Source: Clostridia bacterium (lineage in GTDB: Bacteria; Bacillota; Clostridia; Christensenellales; Aristaeellaceae). Taken from it: 46,238 nucleotides of DNA. Position numbers and translations under genes: made by a program. Location: assembly GCA_017434775.1 (NCBI GenBank), contig JAFSGG010000119.1, positions 1-46,238 of the forward strand. The letters are read 5' to 3'. The notes beneath the pieces were generated by a model. That model was given only the letters and a program-made list of their open reading frames with translations. It searched no databases and was not told the origin of the DNA. Shown here one piece after another: positions 14,811 through 33,995 of the stretch (positions are counted from its first letter, which is position 1; every line of letters begins with the position of its first letter).

Positions 14811-16271
14811 ATGGAACGGTTGATTGCGTTTTTATTGGCCGCGCTGCTTCTTCCCTTTTCCCCTCCGAAAAATCAGGATACCTGCGTTCTTCGCGCCATG
14901 CTCATTGGCAGCGATGCTTTTGTCACACAGGAGAATACGTATCCCGTTGCACAAAACAATCTGAAAAACATGCAAACCCTTTTGCAAAGCGATCATCGAC
15001 GCTATCAGGATATCAGTATCCATTATGAAACCATTACCGCACCGGACAGGCTTCAAGCAGAAATGCGGCATGTTTTCGCCGGGTGTGATGAGAACGATAT
15101 TTCCCTTATTTATTTTTCCACTCACGGCACCATGACGGAGAGCGAAACCGGGTTATATCTTTCCGACGGCTCGGCGGAAACGCTGCTTTCTCCCCAATTC
15201 CTGGCCCATCTTCTTTCCGATATTCCCGGTACGAAAATTCTCATCCTGGACGCCTGCAATTCCGGTGCTTTCATTGGCAAAGGCCGTAACGACACGGATC
15301 TCTTTCATCCCTTCATTGGTGATGATATTTATGTCATCACCAGCGCCAGTGCCTGCGAAGCCAGCTGGCAATGGCAAAGCACGCAGCACGGAACGTCCGG
15401 CGGCAGCTATTTCACAGCCCTCCTTACTGACCTTCTTTCGGGATATCACGCAGCGGATGGAAATAAAGACAATACAGTTACCATAAACGAAGCCTTTTCC
15501 TGCATCAGGGAAAACATCGCCTCCTCCACCCCCCAGCGTTATCCGGAAGATGCCGCAGATTTTCCCCTCTACACCTATTCAACCGGAACCGTAACGGAAC
15601 AGCCGGCTATTTCCGGGCTCACTTTTGATGATACACTGCTTTCCGCAGAGGAGAGCGACGTCTATTTTTCTTTCACCGTCCACCGGGAAACCCAGCTATA
15701 TTATCAGTTGGTCTATTACAAGGAAGGCAAATGGGATTTTGATAACGCCGCTTTCTTCCACGATACGCAGGAAAGCGATGGGCCGCTTTTGCCCGGACGC
15801 AAGCAACGCAAACTTTCTCTGGCACCTCAAACCAATGAAGACTCCGGCTATGTGATGATCCAGCTGTTCTCAGTAGAAGATGAGGTGCCCGTATTGATCG
15901 GCGGCCGTCTTTTATGTGTGCAGCCATCCGGCGGTTCTATGCAGCTGCAGGTGGAAACTGCCGATGGTTTTGATCCTTGTGCCGGTGAAGAGATGTGCAT
16001 CCTTGTGTCCCACGATACGCCCTGTGCCCTGTCCGTCACTGTGCGCAATGCATCCGGCAAATCAATACGCCGCCTCGCCTACGCCCAGCCAACCCGTCCG
16101 CTGCAGTTTCCTTCCCCGGCCACAACCTTTTACTGGGATGGCAAAGATAACCAGGGCCGTATGGCAGCTCCCGGAAAATATTACATTCAGGTGCAGACCA
16201 CCCTGGGCGATACCCGATTCACGGCCGAAAGCGATCCCTTCGTTCTACATACTGTTTCAGAGGAAAAATGA
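14811..16271 (+). CDS. Secreted caspase-like (C14) peptidase with FlgD-like Ig domain
   Basis: A 486-residue protein with a short signal peptide (about residues 1-20). The caspase-like domain has catalytic His105 (IYFSTHG) and Cys149 (LILDACNSG) with the expected spacing. Near residue 220 there is an EF-hand or dockerin-like loop (DGNKDNTVTINEAF). A middle beta-rich region follows, and the C-terminus has a FlgD-type Ig repeat (FYWDGKDNQGRMAAPGKYYIQV). Most bacterial caspase homologues are cytosolic, so export is notable. The target is unknown. The stop lies one base before the MATE start, so both are translated together. GGAGG precedes the ATG, and a TATAAT lies 40 bases up. Alternative: an inactive caspase fold, though the dyad is intact. 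Confidence 0.8.
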   Translation: MERLIAFLLAALLLPFSPPKNQDTCVLRAMLIGSDAFVTQENTYPVAQNNLKNMQTLLQSDHRRYQDISIHYETITAPDRLQAEMRHVFAGCDENDISLIYFSTHGTMTESETGLYLSDGSAETLLSPQFLAHLLSDIPGTKILILDACNSGAFIGKGRNDTDLFHPFIGDDIYVITSASACEASWQWQSTQHGTSGGSYFTALLTDLLSGYHAADGNKDNTVTINEAFSCIRENIASSTPQRYPEDAADFPLYTYSTGTVTEQPAISGLTFDDTLLSAEESDVYFSFTVHRETQLYYQLVYYKEGKWDFDNAAFFHDTQESDGPLLPGRKQRKLSLAPQTNEDSGYVMIQLFSVEDEVPVLIGGRLLCVQPSGGSMQLQVETADGFDPCAGEEMCILVSHDTPCALSVTVRNASGKSIRRLAYAQPTRPLQFPSPATTFYWDGKDNQGRMAAPGKYYIQVQTTLGDTRFTAESDPFVLHTVSEEK

Positions 16272-17723: not shown

Positions 17724-19457
17724 TCAGAAACCGTTTTCCTTATTGATAGCGTCTATTTCTTTTTTCTTCATCACCTGAGCACAGCGGGCACAGGGTTTCA
17801 GATGATCGTGTTCTGTATCCAGTTCGCCGTATTTGAACTCCGTCAGCGGCAGGTAGCGATCCTTCACCGAAGAGCAGTATTGATTTTCGTGATAGTAGCT
17901 GCCCTTGTTGGGATTGTAGTACAGAGGCATATCATCATCCGGGTAATTCATAAACCGTCCGGTATCATCCCAGATAAGCACTTTGGTGCCCACCTTGATA
18001 TTATCCCACAGCCATTTGATGTTCTGGCCCTGTTCGTTCTTTTCCTTCTGCACGCGGATGCAGCCATGGCTGGCTTTTTTGCCCAGCTGGGGCAGCGTGG
18101 AAGAATAATCCCGTCGGTTGGTTGGGGTTTCATGATCACCGATATAGGGCACTTCATGGATGGCACAACCACCGTTGATGCGCATGCCGTAAGCACACCA
18201 CAGGTTACCGGCCGGGAAACCGCCCATGCGGCTGATCATCACAAATTCTCCGGAAGGCGTTTCGTTCCAAGACTGGGTTTCATTGTTAAGGCCGGTGGAT
18301 ACCAGCAATTCGCCAATGCATTTTCCGTCGGAGAAAATGTACATCTTCTGTTCCAGCTTATCAATCAGCAGGCCGTATTCCGTCTTGGGCGTATAGGTTT
18401 TCAGCAGCTTGGTTTCCACATAGCCCTGAATCAGATCATCCGTCACGCCAAAGCCGCGGCGGGATTTACAGTCGGGGCCATAGGAAGAATTATAAGCTTC
18501 CACCAGCGTCCATCCGTTATCCAGGTGTTCAAGTACATGCACGCCCTGGGAGGCGTAGGTAATTTCCCCCACCACATTATCGGCTTTCTGGCTCTTGTCC
18601 GGGGTTTTGCGCAGACGGTACACTTCCTTCTGTTCCCCATCAATCACCGTCATGGGTTGCATCATCACTTCCCAGATGGCCGCTTCATCCATAACCCCCA
18701 CGGGCAGCGTCCAGTAATTGTTTTCATCCTTTTGGGTGGTCACTGCACTGGGGATCAGAATCCTGGGCGTGGGAGCAGGCGTGGGCGTAGGTACAGGCGT
18801 GGGGGTGGGCACCGGTTCCACTGAAAGGCTGATCTGCAAAGGCATACCGGTGTAGCCATCCAGGTCCGTCAGCTTCAATTGCACGTCCCAATCGCCGTAA
18901 TTGACCCCGGCGCCGTTCACCATGCCGTTCCAGTAATGCAAACTTTCTCCTTGCGGTACATTTTCTTCCATAAAGAGATGCCACTGGCCGTCTTCCAGCC
19001 GGATATACAGGCTGAGGGTTCCTTCCATATTGGTGTTCACTGTCACGCTCCATACATCACCGGGGGTTACCTTTCCCGGTGCGGAAACGGACAGAATCTG
19101 GGGAGCCACGTTGCCGATAGTCAGTTTCCGGCTGACCGATACGGATGCTCCGCTGAGCACCAGCGAATATTCGCCGGGAGCAGCCGCCGTGCCATCGTCT
19201 TTCAGCCCGTCCCAGATCATGTGGTTTTCGCCAGCCGGCGCTGTAAACGCCTGACGGATCACCGCCACCGTTTCGCCGTTTTCTGCCATCACAGAAAGGG
19301 TCACTTTTTCTTCCTTTTCCAGGCGGAAGCTGATCCGTTCACTCTTTCCCGGATGCACCACATCCGGCACATTGGTAAACGCATTTTCTCCAGCCGTCGC
19401 CGTGCCAATCAGCACAGCCATACATAAACATAAACAAAGTATCAGCCGCTTCAGCAT
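17724..19457 (-). CDS. L,D-transpeptidase (YkuD) with FlgD-like Ig repeats
   Basis: A 577-residue secreted enzyme expected to make 3-3 cross-links or attach proteins in peptidoglycan. In order: signal peptide (to about 22), a FlgD-type Ig repeat (MIWDGLKDDGTAAAPGEYSLVL), a second related repeat (HYWNGMVNGAGVNYGDWDVQL), a Pro-Thr linker (PTPVPTPTPAPTP), an SH3-like segment and the YkuD domain. The catalytic motif is SHGCIRV with Cys466. The last 60 residues hold an unusual module (YYHENQYCSSV ... LKPCARC) whose His and Cys spacing suggests metal or disulfide formation. AAAAGGAG precedes the ATG, and a promoter lies about 45-70 bases up. The Ig repeat type is shared with the caspase-like protein across the MATE gene. 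Confidence 0.88.
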   Translation of the reverse strand: MLKRLILCLCLCMAVLIGTATAGENAFTNVPDVVHPGKSERISFRLEKEEKVTLSVMAENGETVAVIRQAFTAPAGENHMIWDGLKDDGTAAAPGEYSLVLSGASVSVSRKLTIGNVAPQILSVSAPGKVTPGDVWSVTVNTNMEGTLSLYIRLEDGQWHLFMEENVPQGESLHYWNGMVNGAGVNYGDWDVQLKLTDLDGYTGMPLQISLSVEPVPTPTPVPTPTPAPTPRILIPSAVTTQKDENNYWTLPVGVMDEAAIWEVMMQPMTVIDGEQKEVYRLRKTPDKSQKADNVVGEITYASQGVHVLEHLDNGWTLVEAYNSSYGPDCKSRRGFGVTDDLIQGYVETKLLKTYTPKTEYGLLIDKLEQKMYIFSDGKCIGELLVSTGLNNETQSWNETPSGEFVMISRMGGFPAGNLWCAYGMRINGGCAIHEVPYIGDHETPTNRRDYSSTLPQLGKKASHGCIRVQKEKNEQGQNIKWLWDNIKVGTKVLIWDDTGRFMNYPDDDMPLYYNPNKGSYYHENQYCSSVKDRYLPLTEFKYGELDTEHDHLKPCARCAQVMKKKEIDAINKENGF

Positions 19458-23565: not shown

Positions 23566-23594
23566 CAAAAAACGCAGGACTACGTCCTGCGTTT
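23566..23594 (-). terminator. Terminator closing the motor operon
   Basis: On the minus strand AAACGCAGGAC pairs perfectly with GTCCTGCGTTT around a three-base loop and continues into TTT. It lies just after the vanX-like gene and marks the end of the 27.4-23.6 kb unit. Confidence 0.9.
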
Positions 23595-23600
23595 CTTTGT

Positions 23601-24302
23601 TCACTTTACAGAAAAATTAAATTTCTGATTAAAAAACGGTTCGTGTTCCAGCCGGTAATGCCACCATTCTTTTTCAAAAGAAAGGAATCCGTTGCTCTCC
23701 ATTACGGATTTGAGCAGCTTTCGGTTGGCTTTTTGTTCCGGCGTCAGCCCACCGGCATTGTGCCAGGCTTCCCGTCCGAAATAATCAAAGCATGTGCCCA
23801 TATCCAGTTCGTTTCCTTCCATATCCGTAAGCGTGATATCGATGGCGCTTCCCTTCATATGGCTGGAATTACGGGCAATATATCCCTGATCCACCAATTG
23901 GGTTTTATCCTTAAATTTCGGATAAAATTCCGCCTTCATCCGGATATCCGTTTCATCTTCCGACCAACGTACAAAATGCCGCACCGCACTTTGCGGCCGA
24001 TAAGCATCAAAAATTTTGATCCGGTATCCCATCTGGCGGAATTCGTCTGCCGCATTCTTCAGCCGGTTGGCCGCTTTTACCGACAAGATGGCATAAGGCG
24101 CTTCATAGCCGTCAATGGGTTCCCCCACAAAATTGTGATTCCCGGCATAGCGAATATCCAGAATCACATCGTCAATCACATCATGCACATAACAAAAACC
24201 TTCCGGCAGTTCGTAGGCAGGCGCCACTTCCTCGCTCAAGGCGCAGCCTGTCAGGCAGCAAATCACCAGCACCCCGGCCATCAGTTTACTTGGTATTGTC
24301 AT
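23601..24302 (-). CDS. D-Ala-D-Ala dipeptidase, VanX/M15D family lipoprotein
   Basis: A 233-residue zinc dipeptidase of the VanX/DdpX type. The N-terminus is a lipoprotein signal (VLVICCLTGC, cleavage before Cys20), so it is anchored outside the membrane, unlike the cytosolic VanX of resistance operons. All metal and catalytic residues are present: SSHMKGSAID gives His148 and Asp155, and KEWWHYRL gives Glu212 and His215. YRIKIFDAYRPQSAVRHF carries the conserved arginine. It should cleave D-Ala-D-Ala or related wall peptides. It is the last gene of the ZorAB-like operon and overlaps the preceding gene by 17 bases. No vanR, vanS, vanH or vanA is near, so resistance is unlikely to be its role. 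Confidence 0.9.
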   Translation of the reverse strand: MTIPSKLMAGVLVICCLTGCALSEEVAPAYELPEGFCYVHDVIDDVILDIRYAGNHNFVGEPIDGYEAPYAILSVKAANRLKNAADEFRQMGYRIKIFDAYRPQSAVRHFVRWSEDETDIRMKAEFYPKFKDKTQLVDQGYIARNSSHMKGSAIDITLTDMEGNELDMGTCFDYFGREAWHNAGGLTPEQKANRKLLKSVMESNGFLSFEKEWWHYRLEHEPFFNQKFNFSVK

Positions 24303-24774
24303 AGGTGAATTTTACCTCCTGCGGATTTCCCCACAGATAATACGTCAGGTAGATATTGCGCACATCATGGCCTCGGCCTTCCGTCAGAAGCACGCACCAC
24401 ACGTCCCTGGTTTCCCCAGCCTTTATATCCACTTTACCCGATTCACCGTAATACAGCACGTCCCGGTCATCCGGCGCAATCTGCACTTCCACCATCTCTG
24501 CGTCCACAAGCCCGCTGTTTTTTATGCGCATGGTATACACATGATACACATAATCCTGCGCATTGCCTAATGTTCCGCTCTTTATCTGGGTACCCATCAG
24601 GGCATTGCGTTCCACTGCCGTTTTATCCTTTTCAAACCAGTCCGGCATGTCCACAGCCGAATACACCTGCAAATCCTTGCCAATCACCTGCAACCTCGAC
24701 TGAAACAAACCATACAGAATGATCCCGGCAACCAGGAGCACTGCAAGAATCAGGAAAATGGCCAGCTTTTTCAT
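24286..24774 (-). CDS. Membrane-anchored beta-sandwich protein of unknown function
   Basis: About 162 residues: one N-terminal membrane span (KLAIFLILAVLLVAGIILYG) and a beta-rich outside domain with an Ig-like pattern (HVYTMRIKNSGLVDAEMVEV, then KVDIKAGETRDVWCVLL). No family recognised. I use the ATG at 24774, which has AAGGAAGG upstream; the codon before it is a TTG. It lies 14 bases after the ZorB-like gene and overlaps the VanX lipoprotein gene by 17 bases, so it is an integral part of the operon. It may bridge the motor and the dipeptidase or bind the wall, which is inference from position. Confidence 0.75.
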   Translation of the reverse strand: MKKLAIFLILAVLLVAGIILYGLFQSRLQVIGKDLQVYSAVDMPDWFEKDKTAVERNALMGTQIKSGTLGNAQDYVYHVYTMRIKNSGLVDAEMVEVQIAPDDRDVLYYGESGKVDIKAGETRDVWCVLLTEGRGHDVRNIYLTYYLWGNPQEVKFTYDNTK

Positions 24775-24788
24775 CAATTTCCTTCCTT

Positions 24789-25853
24789 TTATTCAAATTC
24801 GGAAAGGATACGGTTCATTTCCGCAATCATTTCTTCATCCTTCAGCCGGAATTTGAATTCCACGCGTCGGGATGCTTCCATATTCACCGTACCGTCCGGA
24901 TTGTACACAGGGTCAGAATAGCTGCGTCCCTGAGCCGTCATCAGATCCTGCAGCATCAGCCGCTGGGCATTGGAAAGTCCTGGCATCTGCAGGCAAAATT
25001 CCGCCACGGAAAGGGCACGGTTCTGGCTCAGTTTCAGGTTGCTGATGTAGGAACCGGCGGTATCCGTATGGCCCACAATCACAATTTCGCCCACATAATC
25101 CCGGTATTCCGGCCGCATCAGCACGGAAAGGTAAATGGGTAAAAATCGGTTCAGGATATCCTTACCGGAATCTTTGATGGTATTGGAATTGACGTCAAAG
25201 AAAACTGCACTGTCCAATACAATATCACCGGTGGTCTTATCCACCGTCACTTTCAGGTTAGCCCGATTGAGGGAATACGTCAAATCTTCGATAATCTGCG
25301 TGCGCACACCCACCAAATCATCCAGCCGCTTTTGCTGCAGCTGCAGTTCCTTTTTCTGTTCATCCACTACCAGCTGCATAGCCTGCAATTCTTTTTCCTG
25401 CTGCGCCAATTGCAGTTGCAAAAGGTTCTGCTCTTCCTTCTGTGTTTTCAGGGATGCCTGCGCGGCATGCAGATCTTCTTCCTGCTCCTGCAGCTGAATC
25501 TGCACCAAGGCCAGTTCTTCTTCCTTCCCTTTGAGGGTTGCGTTCAGTTCGTTTACTTCTTCTTCCCGCCTAGCCAGCACCAGCGCTGCCTGATCCAGCT
25601 TTTCCTGCTGGTTCTTCATTTCTTCTGCCTGAATGATCAGCTGGGCGTCCTTTTCGTCCAGTTCCTGCTTCTGAATGGTCAATTGGGCTTTGGTGTTTTC
25701 CAGATCCGCCTGCTTCAGATGCAGCTGATACACATTGTAGATCACAGCCAGCACAAATACAATCAGCAGCGATGCCATCACGTCCGAATAGGATATCCAG
25801 TGGGCGCCCTGATCGCCGCCGGAAGCATGACGCTTTGTTCTTCTTGCGGTCAT
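24789..25853 (-). CDS. ZorB/MotB-like stator protein with long coiled coil and OmpA domain
   Basis: A 354-residue protein with one N-terminal span (YSDVMASLLIVFVLAVIYNV) that carries the conserved Asp used for ion conduction in MotB/ZorB stators. Residues about 45-190 form a long heptad-rich coiled coil made of Gln, Glu, Lys and Leu. The C-terminal OmpA-like peptidoglycan-binding domain shows IVIVGHTDTAGSYISNLKLS and QNRALSVAEF. ZorB of E. coli is about 100 residues shorter and, as far as I know, lacks such a coil. The extra length could span the distance to a thick wall. The gene follows the ZorA-like gene by one base, with GGAGG inside that gene. Confidence 0.88.
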   Translation of the reverse strand: MTARRTKRHASGGDQGAHWISYSDVMASLLIVFVLAVIYNVYQLHLKQADLENTKAQLTIQKQELDEKDAQLIIQAEEMKNQQEKLDQAALVLARREEEVNELNATLKGKEEELALVQIQLQEQEEDLHAAQASLKTQKEEQNLLQLQLAQQEKELQAMQLVVDEQKKELQLQQKRLDDLVGVRTQIIEDLTYSLNRANLKVTVDKTTGDIVLDSAVFFDVNSNTIKDSGKDILNRFLPIYLSVLMRPEYRDYVGEIVIVGHTDTAGSYISNLKLSQNRALSVAEFCLQMPGLSNAQRLMLQDLMTAQGRSYSDPVYNPDGTVNMEASRRVEFKFRLKDEEMIAEMNRILSEFE

Positions 25854-25854
25854 A

Positions 25855-27402
25855 TCACTTTTCCTCCGGCACATTCAGGGCATCCGTCATATCCCGGATG
25901 GCCACCTGCAGCCTGGAAAGGGCTGCTGCGCAGCCTTCGGCTTCCCGGACAAATTCAGCCTTTGCATTGGCGTTCCCATGAATATTTTCCACAGCAGCCA
26001 GTTTATCATGCATGGCTTGGAGAATGCGATTTATATTTTCTTCAAACAATTTCATGGAAACGGAGAAGCCGCGGCTGATGTCATCCACGAAGTTGGCATA
26101 ATTCTCAGAAAGCTTCCGGCCGCTTTCATTCATTTCCCTGGTAACAGCGGTGGATAGCTGTATGGTTTTTTCCGTCTGGTCATTGATGGCGGAAGACATC
26201 TGGCTGCTCCAGTTCACATAATCCTGCATGCCGGTCTGCAAGCTCTTTTGCGCCGTACGGATATTGGCCAGGATCTCCGTCTGTTCGCTGGCAGCCGCCA
26301 CCATGCCGGACAGCACTTCGCTGCCGTGCTGCAAAAACTGTTCATTATCCGCCCGGGACCGATCCAGCGTCTGGATGTAGTTATTAAAGCTGTCCATGAT
26401 CTGCTGGGTCACATGCTGCACCTGATGCAGATTTTTCATAATATCATCTGCCGCAGCCATGGTGGTGCTGATGGTATCGTAAGATACGCTCTGAGCCTGA
26501 TTGATGGTGGTGAGGGTCTTGCCCAATTGCAGGAACTGGCCGTTGAGCGCACGATTCATGTTCTGAATAAAGTTTTCCACGATGCCGTTCACGCCGTCAA
26601 TCTGCGCCTGGGTCTGCCCCAGGATGAACTGGTTCATCTGCTGAGCCACCGGCATCAGCGAACGTTCCACCCCGGCGGCAATCCCTTCCGTCACACGGGT
26701 GGCCATATCGCCGCTCATGTGGCGCAAAAGCGCCGTCCTGTCTTCCTGCTGCAGAATCATCTGTACATAAGGCTCCAGCGGCTTTTGCATGACGATCTGT
26801 GTAAACGCATCGTTAAAATCATCAATGGCGCGGATGGCACTGCCATGGGCCATGCGGTTGAACATATTGAAGATCAATGAACAGCTCACGCCTGCAATGG
26901 ACGTGGTGAAGGCATAGGTCATGCCCTCGATCATTTTGGGAATTTCCTGCATGGTCTGGGCCGTATCGCTCAGGTTCAGCCCGCCAAGACCCTGCACCAG
27001 GCCAATAAACGTGCCCAGAATACCAAGACTGGTCAAAAGCCCTGGTACGGCATCTGCCAGATGCGCATGACCCACGGAATAAATCACCGTATCGTCATTC
27101 ACATAGTCTTCCACATTGCAGTTCATGCCGCGTGCATCCAATTGCTCCGCATTTACCAGAAAACGCCGCCAGGAGCCCTGCATGTTTTTCCCCAGGAATT
27201 TCACATCCTGCCACACTGGCGGAATGGTATCCAGATTCATTTCCAGGGAACGGATGCCTTTGCGCAGCTTCTGGCCGGCACGGCTTACGGGAAGTACACA
27301 TTTCACCAGCCCGATGATAAAGACCAGGGCAATGGCAATATAGATCAGAATGTTCAGTAAATCCTTTGCCAAACTCTGCAGCAGTTCATCCAAATCTGCC
27401 AC
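25855..27402 (-). CDS. ZorA/MotA/TolQ-like ion-channel subunit with long cytosolic tail
   Basis: About 515 residues. One span near residues 15-36, then the hallmark pair of channel spans: PGLLTSLGILGTFIGLVQGL (the ZorA/MotA signature) and MTYAFTTSIAGVSCSLIFNM. A soluble tail of over 300 residues follows, rich in helices with coiled-coil character. ZorA of the Zorya phage-defence system has the same plan: a MotA-like channel plus a long intracellular tail. I use GTG at 27402, six bases after GGAG; an ATG 15 bases earlier has no ribosome site. With the next gene it should form a 5:2 proton- or sodium-driven motor. Alternatives are the Tol, Agl or Gld motor families. Confidence 0.85.
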   Translation of the reverse strand: MADLDELLQSLAKDLLNILIYIAIALVFIIGLVKCVLPVSRAGQKLRKGIRSLEMNLDTIPPVWQDVKFLGKNMQGSWRRFLVNAEQLDARGMNCNVEDYVNDDTVIYSVGHAHLADAVPGLLTSLGILGTFIGLVQGLGGLNLSDTAQTMQEIPKMIEGMTYAFTTSIAGVSCSLIFNMFNRMAHGSAIRAIDDFNDAFTQIVMQKPLEPYVQMILQQEDRTALLRHMSGDMATRVTEGIAAGVERSLMPVAQQMNQFILGQTQAQIDGVNGIVENFIQNMNRALNGQFLQLGKTLTTINQAQSVSYDTISTTMAAADDIMKNLHQVQHVTQQIMDSFNNYIQTLDRSRADNEQFLQHGSEVLSGMVAAASEQTEILANIRTAQKSLQTGMQDYVNWSSQMSSAINDQTEKTIQLSTAVTREMNESGRKLSENYANFVDDISRGFSVSMKLFEENINRILQAMHDKLAAVENIHGNANAKAEFVREAEGCAAALSRLQVAIRDMTDALNVPEEK

Positions 27403-27428
27403 GCTCCTCTCCTGCATATATATGTAAC

Positions 27429-27457
27429 ATTTTAGCACAAAAACCTTTGTCACGCAA
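27429..27457 (-). promoter_or_regulatory. Promoter of the ZorAB-like operon
   Basis: On the minus strand TTGCGT, a 17-base spacer, then TAAAAT with an extended TGTGC. It lies about 27 bases before the GTG start of the ZorA-like gene. Confidence 0.6.
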
Positions 27458-30962: not shown

Positions 30963-30991
30963 TTGTAATTATTCATGTTTTATGCTATAAT
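30963..30991 (+). promoter_or_regulatory. Promoter of the HD-GYP receptor gene
   Basis: TTGTAA, a 17-base spacer, then TATAAT with an extended TGC, about 31 bases before the start codon. The AT-rich stretch 30760-30962 between the divergent genes shows no other recognisable feature apart from a TATAAT (minus strand, 30750-30755) that could serve the GH74 gene. Confidence 0.7.
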
Positions 30992-31022
30992 ATCTAAAAA
31001 GAGTTCTGAGGAGTCAATCAAT

Positions 31023-33995
31023 ATGAAAAGATATTCCATCCTTTCGCTTGTGTTGATTTTTTTATTCCTTATACCTGCTCATATATCCCTGGCTGAAAAC
31101 ACCGAGGAAACACCCTATGTAACCACGATTTATAACGAACGCAACGGCTTACCCACCGGCGAAGCCAACGCAATCTGCCAGACGCAGGATCATTACGTCT
31201 GGATCGGCAGCTATGGCGGCCTTGTGCGCTATGACGGCACCACTTTCCGCAATTTCAGCCAGGAAGGCAAATTCCCCTCCTCTTCCGTCCGTTCTTTGTT
31301 TGAAGACAGTCAGGGGCGGCTTTGGATCGGCACCAACGATGCCGGTCTTTTCCTGTTTGAAAACGACAGCTTTACCCACATTCCGGAAGAAGGCGATCCT
31401 GTTTTCCTGTCCGTCCGCGATATAGCGGAAGATCAGCAAGGCCGCATCTGGGCCGCTTGCACGTCCGGCCTGGCCCGGGTGGAAAACGGCATGCTTCAGC
31501 CGGTCAATGACCCTTTGCTCTCCGGTCAGATCATCTATTCTCTGGGCATCGATGCCAACGGCCGCGTCTGGTGTGCGCTGGATGGATGGCAATGCGCTGT
31601 GGTTTCGGAAAAAGGCGTGGCGCTGATTTCTTCCGCCTCCATCTTTCCGGATGGCCAGCAAATTTATTGCGTTTCCTCTGACAAAGACGGTTCCATTTAT
31701 CTGGGCACATATCAGAATGCCGTGGCAAAGCTCACGTTCTCTGCCGGCAAGCAGGAAGCTGCTCCGATGCGTATCGATATTCTGGAAACCGGCAATACCA
31801 CCATGCATAACGCCATGTCTGTCACACCGGATGGCGATCTGTTTGTTTGCGGCCAGAGGGGCTTTGCCTGGGTAAATACCGATGGGCATCTGCGCACATT
31901 TGACGAAACAACCGGCGCCGCCAATCTCAACGATGCCATGCTGGATTATGAAGGCAATCTTTGGCTGGCCTCCTCCAGCTACGGTGTGATCAAATTCAAT
32001 CCCGGTTGTTTCCACTCCCTCAACCGGAACGCTTCGCTGGACGGCATTGCTTTCAATACCATTTCCTGCAGCAACGGTCATTATTATCTGGGCATGGATA
32101 ACGGCCTGATCATCCTGGACGGCAATTGGCAGCCTATTGAAAATGAACTGACAGCCCTGATGCAAAACACACGGATCCGTCATATCATCACGGACGGGAA
32201 CGGCGCCGTCTGGCTTGCCACTTACTCTTCTCTTGGCACAATCTGCTATCAGCCGGATACCGGCCATATGACCGTATACAATGCTGATATCGGCATGCGG
32301 GAGTGCTTCACCAGAACCCTGCTGGAGAGGAAAGACGGTACCATTGCTGCCGGTACGTCTGACGGGTTCTATCTTCTCCGGGACGGCCGTGTGCTCCAAT
32401 ATTTCGGTTCAAAAGACGGGCTCCTCAATACCACCGTTCTTTGCTTTGCAGAGGATGAATCCGGAACGCTCTATATCGGCACCGACGGTGGAGGTATGTA
32501 TTCCCTCACCGGTGATACCCTTACCCTCCATGGCAGCAACGAAGGGCTGAAAAACGGTATTGTACTGCGAATTTTGCCGGATGGCCAGAGTGGGCTGTTT
32601 GTCAGCGCCGGCAACCATCTCTATCATTGGAAAGATCATTCCTTCCGGGTGCTGGATCATTTTGAAAAAGCAGCCGGCAATATTTTTGATATGTATCTGG
32701 TGGATGATAAGCTTTATCTGCTGCAAAACAGCGGCGTACTGGAAGTGGATGCCGCCAGACTGATGCAGGGCCAGAAAGCAGAAACCACACTCTACAGTTT
32801 CCAGCACGGCCTCACCGGCAGCCTCAACGCCAATACCTGGCATCATCTGACGGCCGATCAGAAGCTCTATATGGCCACCCGCAGCGGCATTTCCGTATTT
32901 GCCTTCGCAGGGGTGGATACGCCCTTGCCCGCCGGTATGATCCAGGCTGTTCAGGCGGATCATACCGTGTATGAACACCCCACATCCCTCACGCTTCCCA
33001 GCGATACCCACCGCATCACCATTGATTTTGCCTCCCTTTCCTACGCTGAAACGGATCAGAGCATTATGTCCTATCAGCTGGCAGGGTTCAGCAGCGGTGA
33101 AACGCTGGTTACCGATCAAAAAAACGGCAGCATCAGCTATACCAATCTGCCCGGCGGCGATTATATCTTCCATCTGCGCATCTATCACCCGGAATCACCG
33201 GATGAAGGCCGGGAATATCTGCTGCCCATCCATATTGAAAAGAAAATCACAGAGCAGCCCCTTTTCTGGGTACTATTTGGGCTGGCTGTCATTGCCCTTC
33301 TGACTTTCATTATTTTCACCATCAGTCAATTACGGCATCGTGCCCATGTGCGCCGCATTCAGGAAAGGCAGCGGGAACTGCAGGCCATTGTGCACCAATC
33401 CCTCCAGTCTTTCGCCATGGTCATCGACGCAAAGGACCCCTATACCAAAGGCCATTCCTCCCGCGTGGCCCGATATGCCCGTGAATTGGCCCGGCGCATG
33501 CACCTGTCTTCTGACGAGCAGGAACGCATCTATTACATTGCCCTTCTCCATGATATCGGCAAAATCGGCATTCCGGATCATATCCTGAACAAGCAAGGCC
33601 CCCTCACGCCGGAAGAAAAGAAAATTGTCAAAACCCATCCGGAGGTGGGTGGCCATGTGCTGGAAGGATTCACGGCACTGGAAGGCATTGCAGACGGCGC
33701 CAGATACCACCATGAACGCTATGACGGCAACGGATACTGCGCCGGCAAAAAAGGAACGGATATTCCGCTGGTAGCCCGCATTATCGGCGTGGCGGACAGT
33801 TACGATACCATGTCCAGTGATCGCTGCTATCGCGCCGCACTTTCAAAAGAAAAGATCATTTCCGAACTGAAGGAAAACGCCGGCACCCAGTTTGATCCGG
33901 CCATCGTTCCCTTCATGCTGGCTATGATTGAAGACGGCACGGTCCCCTCAAAGGAAGACGACGGCCATCTCACACTCTCTGCCGCTGATGAATAA
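31023..33995 (+). CDS. Periplasmic-propeller receptor with HD-GYP phosphodiesterase domain
   Basis: A 990-residue membrane receptor. After a signal peptide (to about 24) come many two-component-regulator propeller repeats (VWIGSYGGLVRYDG, LWIGTNDAGLFLFE, LYIGTDGGGMYSL) and a Y_Y_Y-type domain (ITIDFASLSYAETDQSIMSY). A membrane span (FWVLFGLAVIALLTFIIF) and a cytosolic HD-GYP domain follow. The metal site is HDIGKIGIPD with His843-Asp844, and the second signature is HHERYDGNGYC. Such domains hydrolyse cyclic-di-GMP, so an outside signal, perhaps a glycan as in propeller-type polysaccharide sensors, would tune c-di-GMP. The GYP triad reads GYC here. TGAGGAG precedes the ATG. It is divergent from the GH74 gene. 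Confidence 0.9.
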   Translation: MKRYSILSLVLIFLFLIPAHISLAENTEETPYVTTIYNERNGLPTGEANAICQTQDHYVWIGSYGGLVRYDGTTFRNFSQEGKFPSSSVRSLFEDSQGRLWIGTNDAGLFLFENDSFTHIPEEGDPVFLSVRDIAEDQQGRIWAACTSGLARVENGMLQPVNDPLLSGQIIYSLGIDANGRVWCALDGWQCAVVSEKGVALISSASIFPDGQQIYCVSSDKDGSIYLGTYQNAVAKLTFSAGKQEAAPMRIDILETGNTTMHNAMSVTPDGDLFVCGQRGFAWVNTDGHLRTFDETTGAANLNDAMLDYEGNLWLASSSYGVIKFNPGCFHSLNRNASLDGIAFNTISCSNGHYYLGMDNGLIILDGNWQPIENELTALMQNTRIRHIITDGNGAVWLATYSSLGTICYQPDTGHMTVYNADIGMRECFTRTLLERKDGTIAAGTSDGFYLLRDGRVLQYFGSKDGLLNTTVLCFAEDESGTLYIGTDGGGMYSLTGDTLTLHGSNEGLKNGIVLRILPDGQSGLFVSAGNHLYHWKDHSFRVLDHFEKAAGNIFDMYLVDDKLYLLQNSGVLEVDAARLMQGQKAETTLYSFQHGLTGSLNANTWHHLTADQKLYMATRSGISVFAFAGVDTPLPAGMIQAVQADHTVYEHPTSLTLPSDTHRITIDFASLSYAETDQSIMSYQLAGFSSGETLVTDQKNGSISYTNLPGGDYIFHLRIYHPESPDEGREYLLPIHIEKKITEQPLFWVLFGLAVIALLTFIIFTISQLRHRAHVRRIQERQRELQAIVHQSLQSFAMVIDAKDPYTKGHSSRVARYARELARRMHLSSDEQERIYYIALLHDIGKIGIPDHILNKQGPLTPEEKKIVKTHPEVGGHVLEGFTALEGIADGARYHHERYDGNGYCAGKKGTDIPLVARIIGVADSYDTMSSDRCYRAALSKEKIISELKENAGTQFDPAIVPFMLAMIEDGTVPSKEDDGHLTLSAADE

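Follow-up and report, generated by a model that had tools for sequence, protein, structure and literature searches.

The motors most like the one described here are the ZorAB complexes of Zorya, an anti-phage system whose nuclease partners are ZorC with ZorD, or ZorE. An excerpt of PMC11890865 describes a 5:2 complex of ZorA and ZorB in which the tail, peptidoglycan binding and ion flow are important for defence, and it notes that Zorya is unevenly distributed, as is typical for anti-phage systems. An excerpt of PMC12204202 lists ZorAB among the envelope motors as phage defence, and describes Tol-Pal and Ton as proton motive force (PMF)-type pentamer:dimer motors that work across the envelope. 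In that of PMC12505986, ZorAB is a remote homologue left out of the phylogeny. None of the literature matches listed reports a non-defence or orphan ZorAB, or a core effector-free ZorAB clade. We analysed a ZorAB-like operon (nt 23601–27417, − strand) in the 46,238-nucleotide contig JAFSGG010000119.1, referred to here as the window, from a gut Clostridia bacterium of the family Aristaeellaceae. With middling confidence, we read it as a ZorAB-type motor that gave up phage defence to serve this non-flagellate, monoderm clostridial family as a core envelope machine.

The channel and stator subunits have their best matches in Zorya models and in solved Zorya motors (Table 1). ZorA1 is the best PADLOC model for the first subunit and ZorB1 is matched by the second. 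Both subunits fall inside the Zorya clade, yet they stay under the NCBIfam cut-offs: the ZorA-like protein scores 85.5 bits against antiphage_ZorA_2 (cut-off 100), and the ZorB-like protein is below the curated ZorB cut-off. The score of ZorA against Pfam MotA_ExbB is slightly below the cut-off (22.7 against 22.9 bits); the OmpA match of ZorB exceeds its own. ZorA carries a long helical cytosolic tail. In ZorB the membrane Asp31 can be read within HWISYSD and the wall-binding motif as GHTD..G.Y..N..LSQ.RA. Linker residues 51–200 contain 0 Pro and 2 Gly, with a heptad periodicity matched by 0 of 5000 shuffles. The original prediction, made from the letters of the DNA, had described a MotA/ZorA-like channel with a long cytosolic tail, and a ZorB-like stator with a membrane Asp, a coiled coil and an OmpA domain; both descriptions are borne out.

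The motor is close to universal in the family. Of 150 sampled family genomes, 141 have ZorB, as do 82 of the 85 good genomes and 47 of 50 genera; the genome samples are draws from larger groups, and many assemblies are incomplete. The order sample gave ZorB matches in 16 of 200 genomes, 13 of them from the host's family and 3 from elsewhere. Matches in the phylum sample (17 of 199 genomes, host included) and in the class sample (54 of 245, host included) were mostly weak or of flagellar length. The residues of a pentamer:dimer motor are kept, the Asp31 motif in 46 of 46 family ZorBs and the SLGxLGTxxG channel motif in 42 of 46 ZorAs. The wall-binding motif was recovered by pattern in 45 of 46 ZorBs, and by eye the remaining one has it with Val for Leu, giving 46/46. 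ZorA is 497–561 residues long in 37 of 46 members, with a distal tail of poorly conserved sequence; a steady length with so little conservation suggests that the tail is a rod rather than a docking site. ZorA and ZorB form a single uninterrupted open reading frame (ORF) of 722 residues in one genome of genus g5 (L065:9483–11651). A second ZorAB-like pair was seen in a family genome (L123:1116–5713), with a ZorB of 545 residues and a ZorA of 289 residues; the protein encoded next looks secreted and has VWA and FHA domains.

In the tree of ZorA plus ZorB, the 47 family motors form one clade (ultrafast bootstrap 100) inside the Zorya clade (99), in line with the expectation that motors with this tail and coil would group together. 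Flagellar MotAB and the other long-linker clostridial pairs branch separately from them. Approximately unbiased (AU) tests, run on 33 of the 86 rows with L096 not counted as Zorya, reject a monophyletic Zorya that excludes the family (p 0.011). They also reject a grouping of the family with the other long-linker pairs (p 0.0003), and kinship with the latter was discarded.

The stalk of the family ZorBs is long. From the membrane Asp to GHTD there are 192–318 residues (median 220) in 42 of 47 family ZorBs, one of the other five being an incomplete sequence and four being missed by the pattern. The distance is 113–144 in 6 of 9 short ZorBs, and these six include L096, later grouped with the long-linker motors in the tree; the other three short rows, all 5 flagellar rows and the Psychrobacter row dropped out of the comparison. 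Heptad-like periodicity is significant in 40 of 42 family linkers, in 6 of 12 and 7 of 12 linkers of the other long-linker groups, and in 0 of 5 short ones. A coil of 145 residues would extend about 21 nm if fully helical, which is comparable to the Gram-positive membrane-to-wall space. True Zorya systems of the same phylum lack the long stalk, so the wall alone does not explain it. Long linkers probably arose more than once.

No ZorC, ZorD or ZorE lies beside ZorB at the family loci viewed, where neighbours were clustered and few of them were scanned for defence genes (polA, asnS and glucokinase were identified by eye). The claim that the motor comes without these partners held for linked genes. 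In the same phylum and class, ZorBs of 228–262 residues precede ZorC and ZorD (L086, L088, L089, L090) or ZorE (L091) as identified by PADLOC; for L085, L087 and L095 the assignment to Zorya is based on gene layout only, the third gene of L085 having no PADLOC match. A ZorD model does find matches in 141 of 150 family genomes, the highest at 415 bits, which lies within the range of 381–1299 bits that verified ZorDs reach with the same model. The family matches listed begin at profile position 319 or later, and verified ZorDs match from position 71 or earlier. The family proteins are therefore judged to be ordinary SNF2 helicases matched in part, by coverage and not by score.

C1 appears to be a dedicated partner of this effector-free motor. 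Described as a beta-sandwich protein in the original prediction, a fold that is putative, it has one N-terminal hydrophobic span, and gave no accepted match in Pfam, NCBIfam or PDB-sequence searches. Its profile finds a single match in each of 133 of the 150 family genomes; in the order sample it matches 14 of 200 genomes, 13 from the host family and one, marginal, outside it. C1 and ZorB occur together across genomes (both, ZorB alone, C1 alone, neither: 130/10/3/7; Fisher p 6.6e-6, G105 left out). C1 adjoins ZorB in 80 of the 130 genomes compared that have both, and lies elsewhere in 50; in 8 of 20 loci where it is away from ZorB, it is divergent from a PolA-like gene. With one locus taken from each of 46 genera, the gene behind ZorB is C1 directly in 23 and C2 directly in 13; C2 follows 2.6–3.3 kb further on in 2, and neither is seen in 8. 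The finding that C1 goes with an effector-free motor stands, and C1 would make contact with ZorB.

C2 is another single-span protein, weakly SnoaL-like (12 of 15 members at E 0.1, best 8.4e-5). The notion of C1 and C2 as one family was rejected, hhalign giving a probability of 9 with about 30 columns aligned round the membrane span. PDB profile searches with C1 and C2 returned nothing better than E 0.19, and when 48 C1 and 15 C2 proteins were compared with Pfam at E 0.1, none matched FliL. Five C2-type loci continue with another protein that has an N-terminal span and a coiled coil (cluster c7). A protein some 880 residues long, glycoside hydrolase-like by eye (cluster c8), lies directly behind ZorB in L046, L051, L056 and L064, which represent four genera; in two of the four it is located between ZorB and C2. 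The linked small partners C1, C2 and M15 each carry an N-terminal span or signal, and on that account look extracytoplasmic.

The M15 protein of the host has the whole catalytic domain of a VanX dipeptidase. Its Peptidase_M15 score is 127.6 bits against a cut-off of 27, and residues 35–233 align with residues 4–202 of VanX, with SSHxxGSAID and EWWHY kept. It differs from VanX in being an exported lipoprotein, judging by the lipobox LTGC read by eye, and in scoring 190.8 bits where the NCBIfam VanX cut-off is 320. The intact VanX lipoprotein that had been proposed is thus supported in its domain, catalytic motifs and lipobox, and not as a VanX equivalog. M15 homologues are present in 96 of 150 family genomes, mostly not beside ZorB. 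Only 15 genomes have M15 beside ZorB, against 141 with ZorB: 6/6 of the host's genus g1, two of g16, one of g5, five of g7 and one of g10. In five other genomes (four g4, one g45) M15 stands tail to tail with a neighbouring C1 located away from ZorB, and in two g7 genomes (L067, L131) C1 and M15 are one ORF. The original prediction had proposed a fixed four-gene machine with a wall enzyme, whose partner genes would be kept with the motor across the clade. Given how rarely M15 is beside ZorB, how often C1 is elsewhere, and that C2 or no recognised partner may stand behind ZorB, most of the family does not bear out the four-gene idea on the prediction's own terms; the effector-free motor with C1 remains.

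FlhA was found in 0 of 100 family genomes by a search that detected it in 4 of 14 controls, and Omp85 in 0 of 100 by one that detected it in 7 of 14. These results suggest that the machine is non-flagellar and the cell monoderm; a flagellar stator and a diderm Tol/Ton-like system were rejected on the same counts. FliL is a small single-span partner of flagellar MotAB, and the family motor resembles that arrangement in pairing a motor with a small single-span protein, the comparison being of size, topology and gene position only; it differs in the lack of FlhA and of any FliL match for C1 or C2. Tol-Pal and Ton share with it the PMF-type pentamer:dimer motor type acting across the envelope, whereas the family is without Omp85 and its subunits are ZorA and ZorB in sequence, not TolQR. 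The Zorya I/II motors (PDB 8qyd, 8vvn, 8vvi) share the ZorA channel with its long tail and the membrane Asp and OmpA domain of ZorB, and the family branches inside their group. The family differs from them by a stretch between the membrane Asp and GHTD that is longer by about 100 residues, by its dedicated partner C1, by its near-universal presence and by having no linked ZorC, ZorD or ZorE at the loci viewed.

The other long-linker clostridial ZorAB-like pairs (L098–L119) are alike in their long helical ZorB linker and in having no recognised nuclease partner, but they form a separate clade. Twelve of them, from other clostridial families, are followed by a third gene of about 300–370 residues (L098–L103, L105, L106, L108, L112, L113, L119); the one scanned, from L098, is a TPR protein. 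At L092:543–4681 a ZorB-like protein of 440 residues, with no ZorA match in the stretch, precedes a 914-residue protein with a protein kinase domain. A ZorAB-like pair of 332 and 332 residues from a different family of the order (L093:7774–10176) precedes a 140-residue lipoprotein, immunoglobulin (Ig)-like by eye and without a Pfam match.

The packing of the host operon is tight, as predicted. The zorB ORF opens 20 bases inside zorA, no more than 15 bases separate the end of zorB from the start of C1, and C1 and the M15 gene share 17 bases. ORFs were begun at the first ATG, GTG or TTG, and N-termini may be overlong; the zorA-like ORF opens at nt 27453, and an internal ATG was taken as its start. 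The predicted terminator corresponds to a palindrome that the scan listed on the + strand, with a T run seen by eye on the − strand too. The single promoter that had been proposed was not recovered: the scan gave 4 promoter-like sites where 4.8 were expected, none of them upstream of zorA on the − strand.

Table 1. Features of the ZorAB-like operon, with positions in the window.
Feature	Position	Strand	Evidence
ZorA-like channel subunit, 520 residues from internal ATG	25855–27417	−	PADLOC ZorA1 4.5e-26; PDB 8vvn ZorA 1e-16
ZorB-like stator subunit, 361 residues	24789–25874	−	PADLOC ZorB1 7.9e-67; PDB 8qyd ZorB 9.3e-11
ZorB coiled-coil stalk, about residues 50–195	25290–25727	−	No Pro in 51–200; heptad periodicity
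ZorB OmpA-like peptidoglycan-binding domain, residues 225–333	24876–25202	−	Pfam OmpA 2.1e-12
C1, single-span protein, conserved domain predicted outside the membrane	24286–24774	−	Profile in 133/150 family genomes
M15 (VanX-type) peptidase lipoprotein, accessory	23601–24302	−	Pfam Peptidase_M15 6.9e-37; VanX 1r44 2e-44
Palindromic intrinsic-terminator-like hairpin, operon end	23570–23594		11-pair stem

Elsewhere in the window, an L,D-transpeptidase (YkuD) with a FlgD Ig-like domain is encoded at nt 17724–19457 (−), about 4 kb past the operon end, and a caspase-like (C14) peptidase with a FlgD Ig-like domain at nt 14811–16271 (+). A 1006-residue sensor at nt 30975–33995 (+) has regulator-propeller repeats, a Y_Y_Y domain and an HD output domain.

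By analogy with the solved Zorya motors, five ZorA and two ZorB would assemble in the membrane, and ion flow past the membrane Asp would turn them against each other. ZorB would grip the peptidoglycan through the OmpA domain at the end of its coiled stalk, and the tail of ZorA would be a rod kept inside the cell. C1 may sit outside, beside ZorB, as a FliL-like stator-associated partner, with C2 taking the position after ZorB in some members and the M15 peptidase being a wall-acting accessory added in a few genera. Such a motor most likely links the flow of ions with the wall's mechanical or chemical state, either sensing that state or pulling on the wall in growth or division. The idea of a different ion-driven machine with partners outside is in this way retained for a ZorAB without linked ZorC, ZorD or ZorE and with partners that look extracytoplasmic, and given up for the fixed set of four genes.

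Near-universal presence in the family, conserved ion and wall residues, no recognised nuclease partner and a dedicated C1 together fit a housekeeping role better than defence. Several observations weigh against a motor that has left defence in this family. Genome-wide, ZorC was not searched for in the family, and ZorE was matched in 0 of 150 family genomes by a search in which no control rang; the dismissal of the ZorD-model matches depends on coverage, and the partners of only five short-ZorB clostridial systems were verified as Zorya. C1 is found away from ZorB in many genomes. The ZorB-only tree gives the monophyly of the family a weak 0.41, and the Zorya lineage nearest to the family differs between the two trees. 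Descent seems to have been mostly vertical, judging by the prevalence and by same-genus sequences ranking together and not by a species tree. With 3 of the 16 order matches outside it, the motor's ancestor may not have been unique to the host's family. The motor might still serve phage defence, as a Zorya variant that senses phage damage to the wall and acts at the envelope or via an unlinked effector: the ZorAB of Zorya are its closest relatives by profile and tree, and the ion and wall-binding residues required for Zorya defence, as an excerpt of PMC11890865 has it, are kept. Such an envelope-acting defence variant, also raised in the original prediction, is weakened by the carriage of the motor in nearly every family genome, set against the uneven distribution of Zorya stated there, by the ZorE result and by a PADLOC scan of 10 window ORFs outside the operon, in which a generic methyltransferase was the sole match. 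We regard it as unlikely.

A Tol-Pal-like division or constriction motor of the monoderm cell, pulling membrane and wall together at the septum, would agree with a motor of the PMF type that has a wall-binding stalk and partners that look extracytoplasmic, and that occurs nearly throughout the family. No linked division gene was seen among the neighbours, which differ between genera; this reading, which overlaps the core envelope machine and is its more specific form, has a small chance of being right. A distinct four-gene wall-remodelling machine in which M15 is essential gains from the host's genus, where M15 is always beside ZorB, from the C1–M15 fusions and from the C1–M15 pairs away from ZorB. 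It is contradicted for most of the family, where M15 is absent or mostly elsewhere, and is quite improbable. A stator for motility, flagellar or gliding, has MotA/MotB ancestry on its side; the missing FlhA and the tree, which sets the family apart from flagellar MotAB, make it very improbable. In a bolder form of the core-machine reading, which is possible yet doubtful, the defence motor was domesticated early into an essential or near-essential envelope machine, a functional counterpart of Tol-Pal for cells that have no outer membrane, with C1, C2 and M15 as exchangeable outside partners.

If the ZorAB-type motor of this family is a core envelope machine, ZorAB motors would not be solely parts of defence, and one of them would be a core gene of a whole clostridial family. 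It would be a rare instance of an immune motor turned to housekeeping, and would let monoderm bacteria power the wall from the membrane. A match to a model called 'anti-phage ZorA/ZorB' could then over-call defence. C1 and the long stalk give experiments a direct hold on the way in which motors of this kind select their output.

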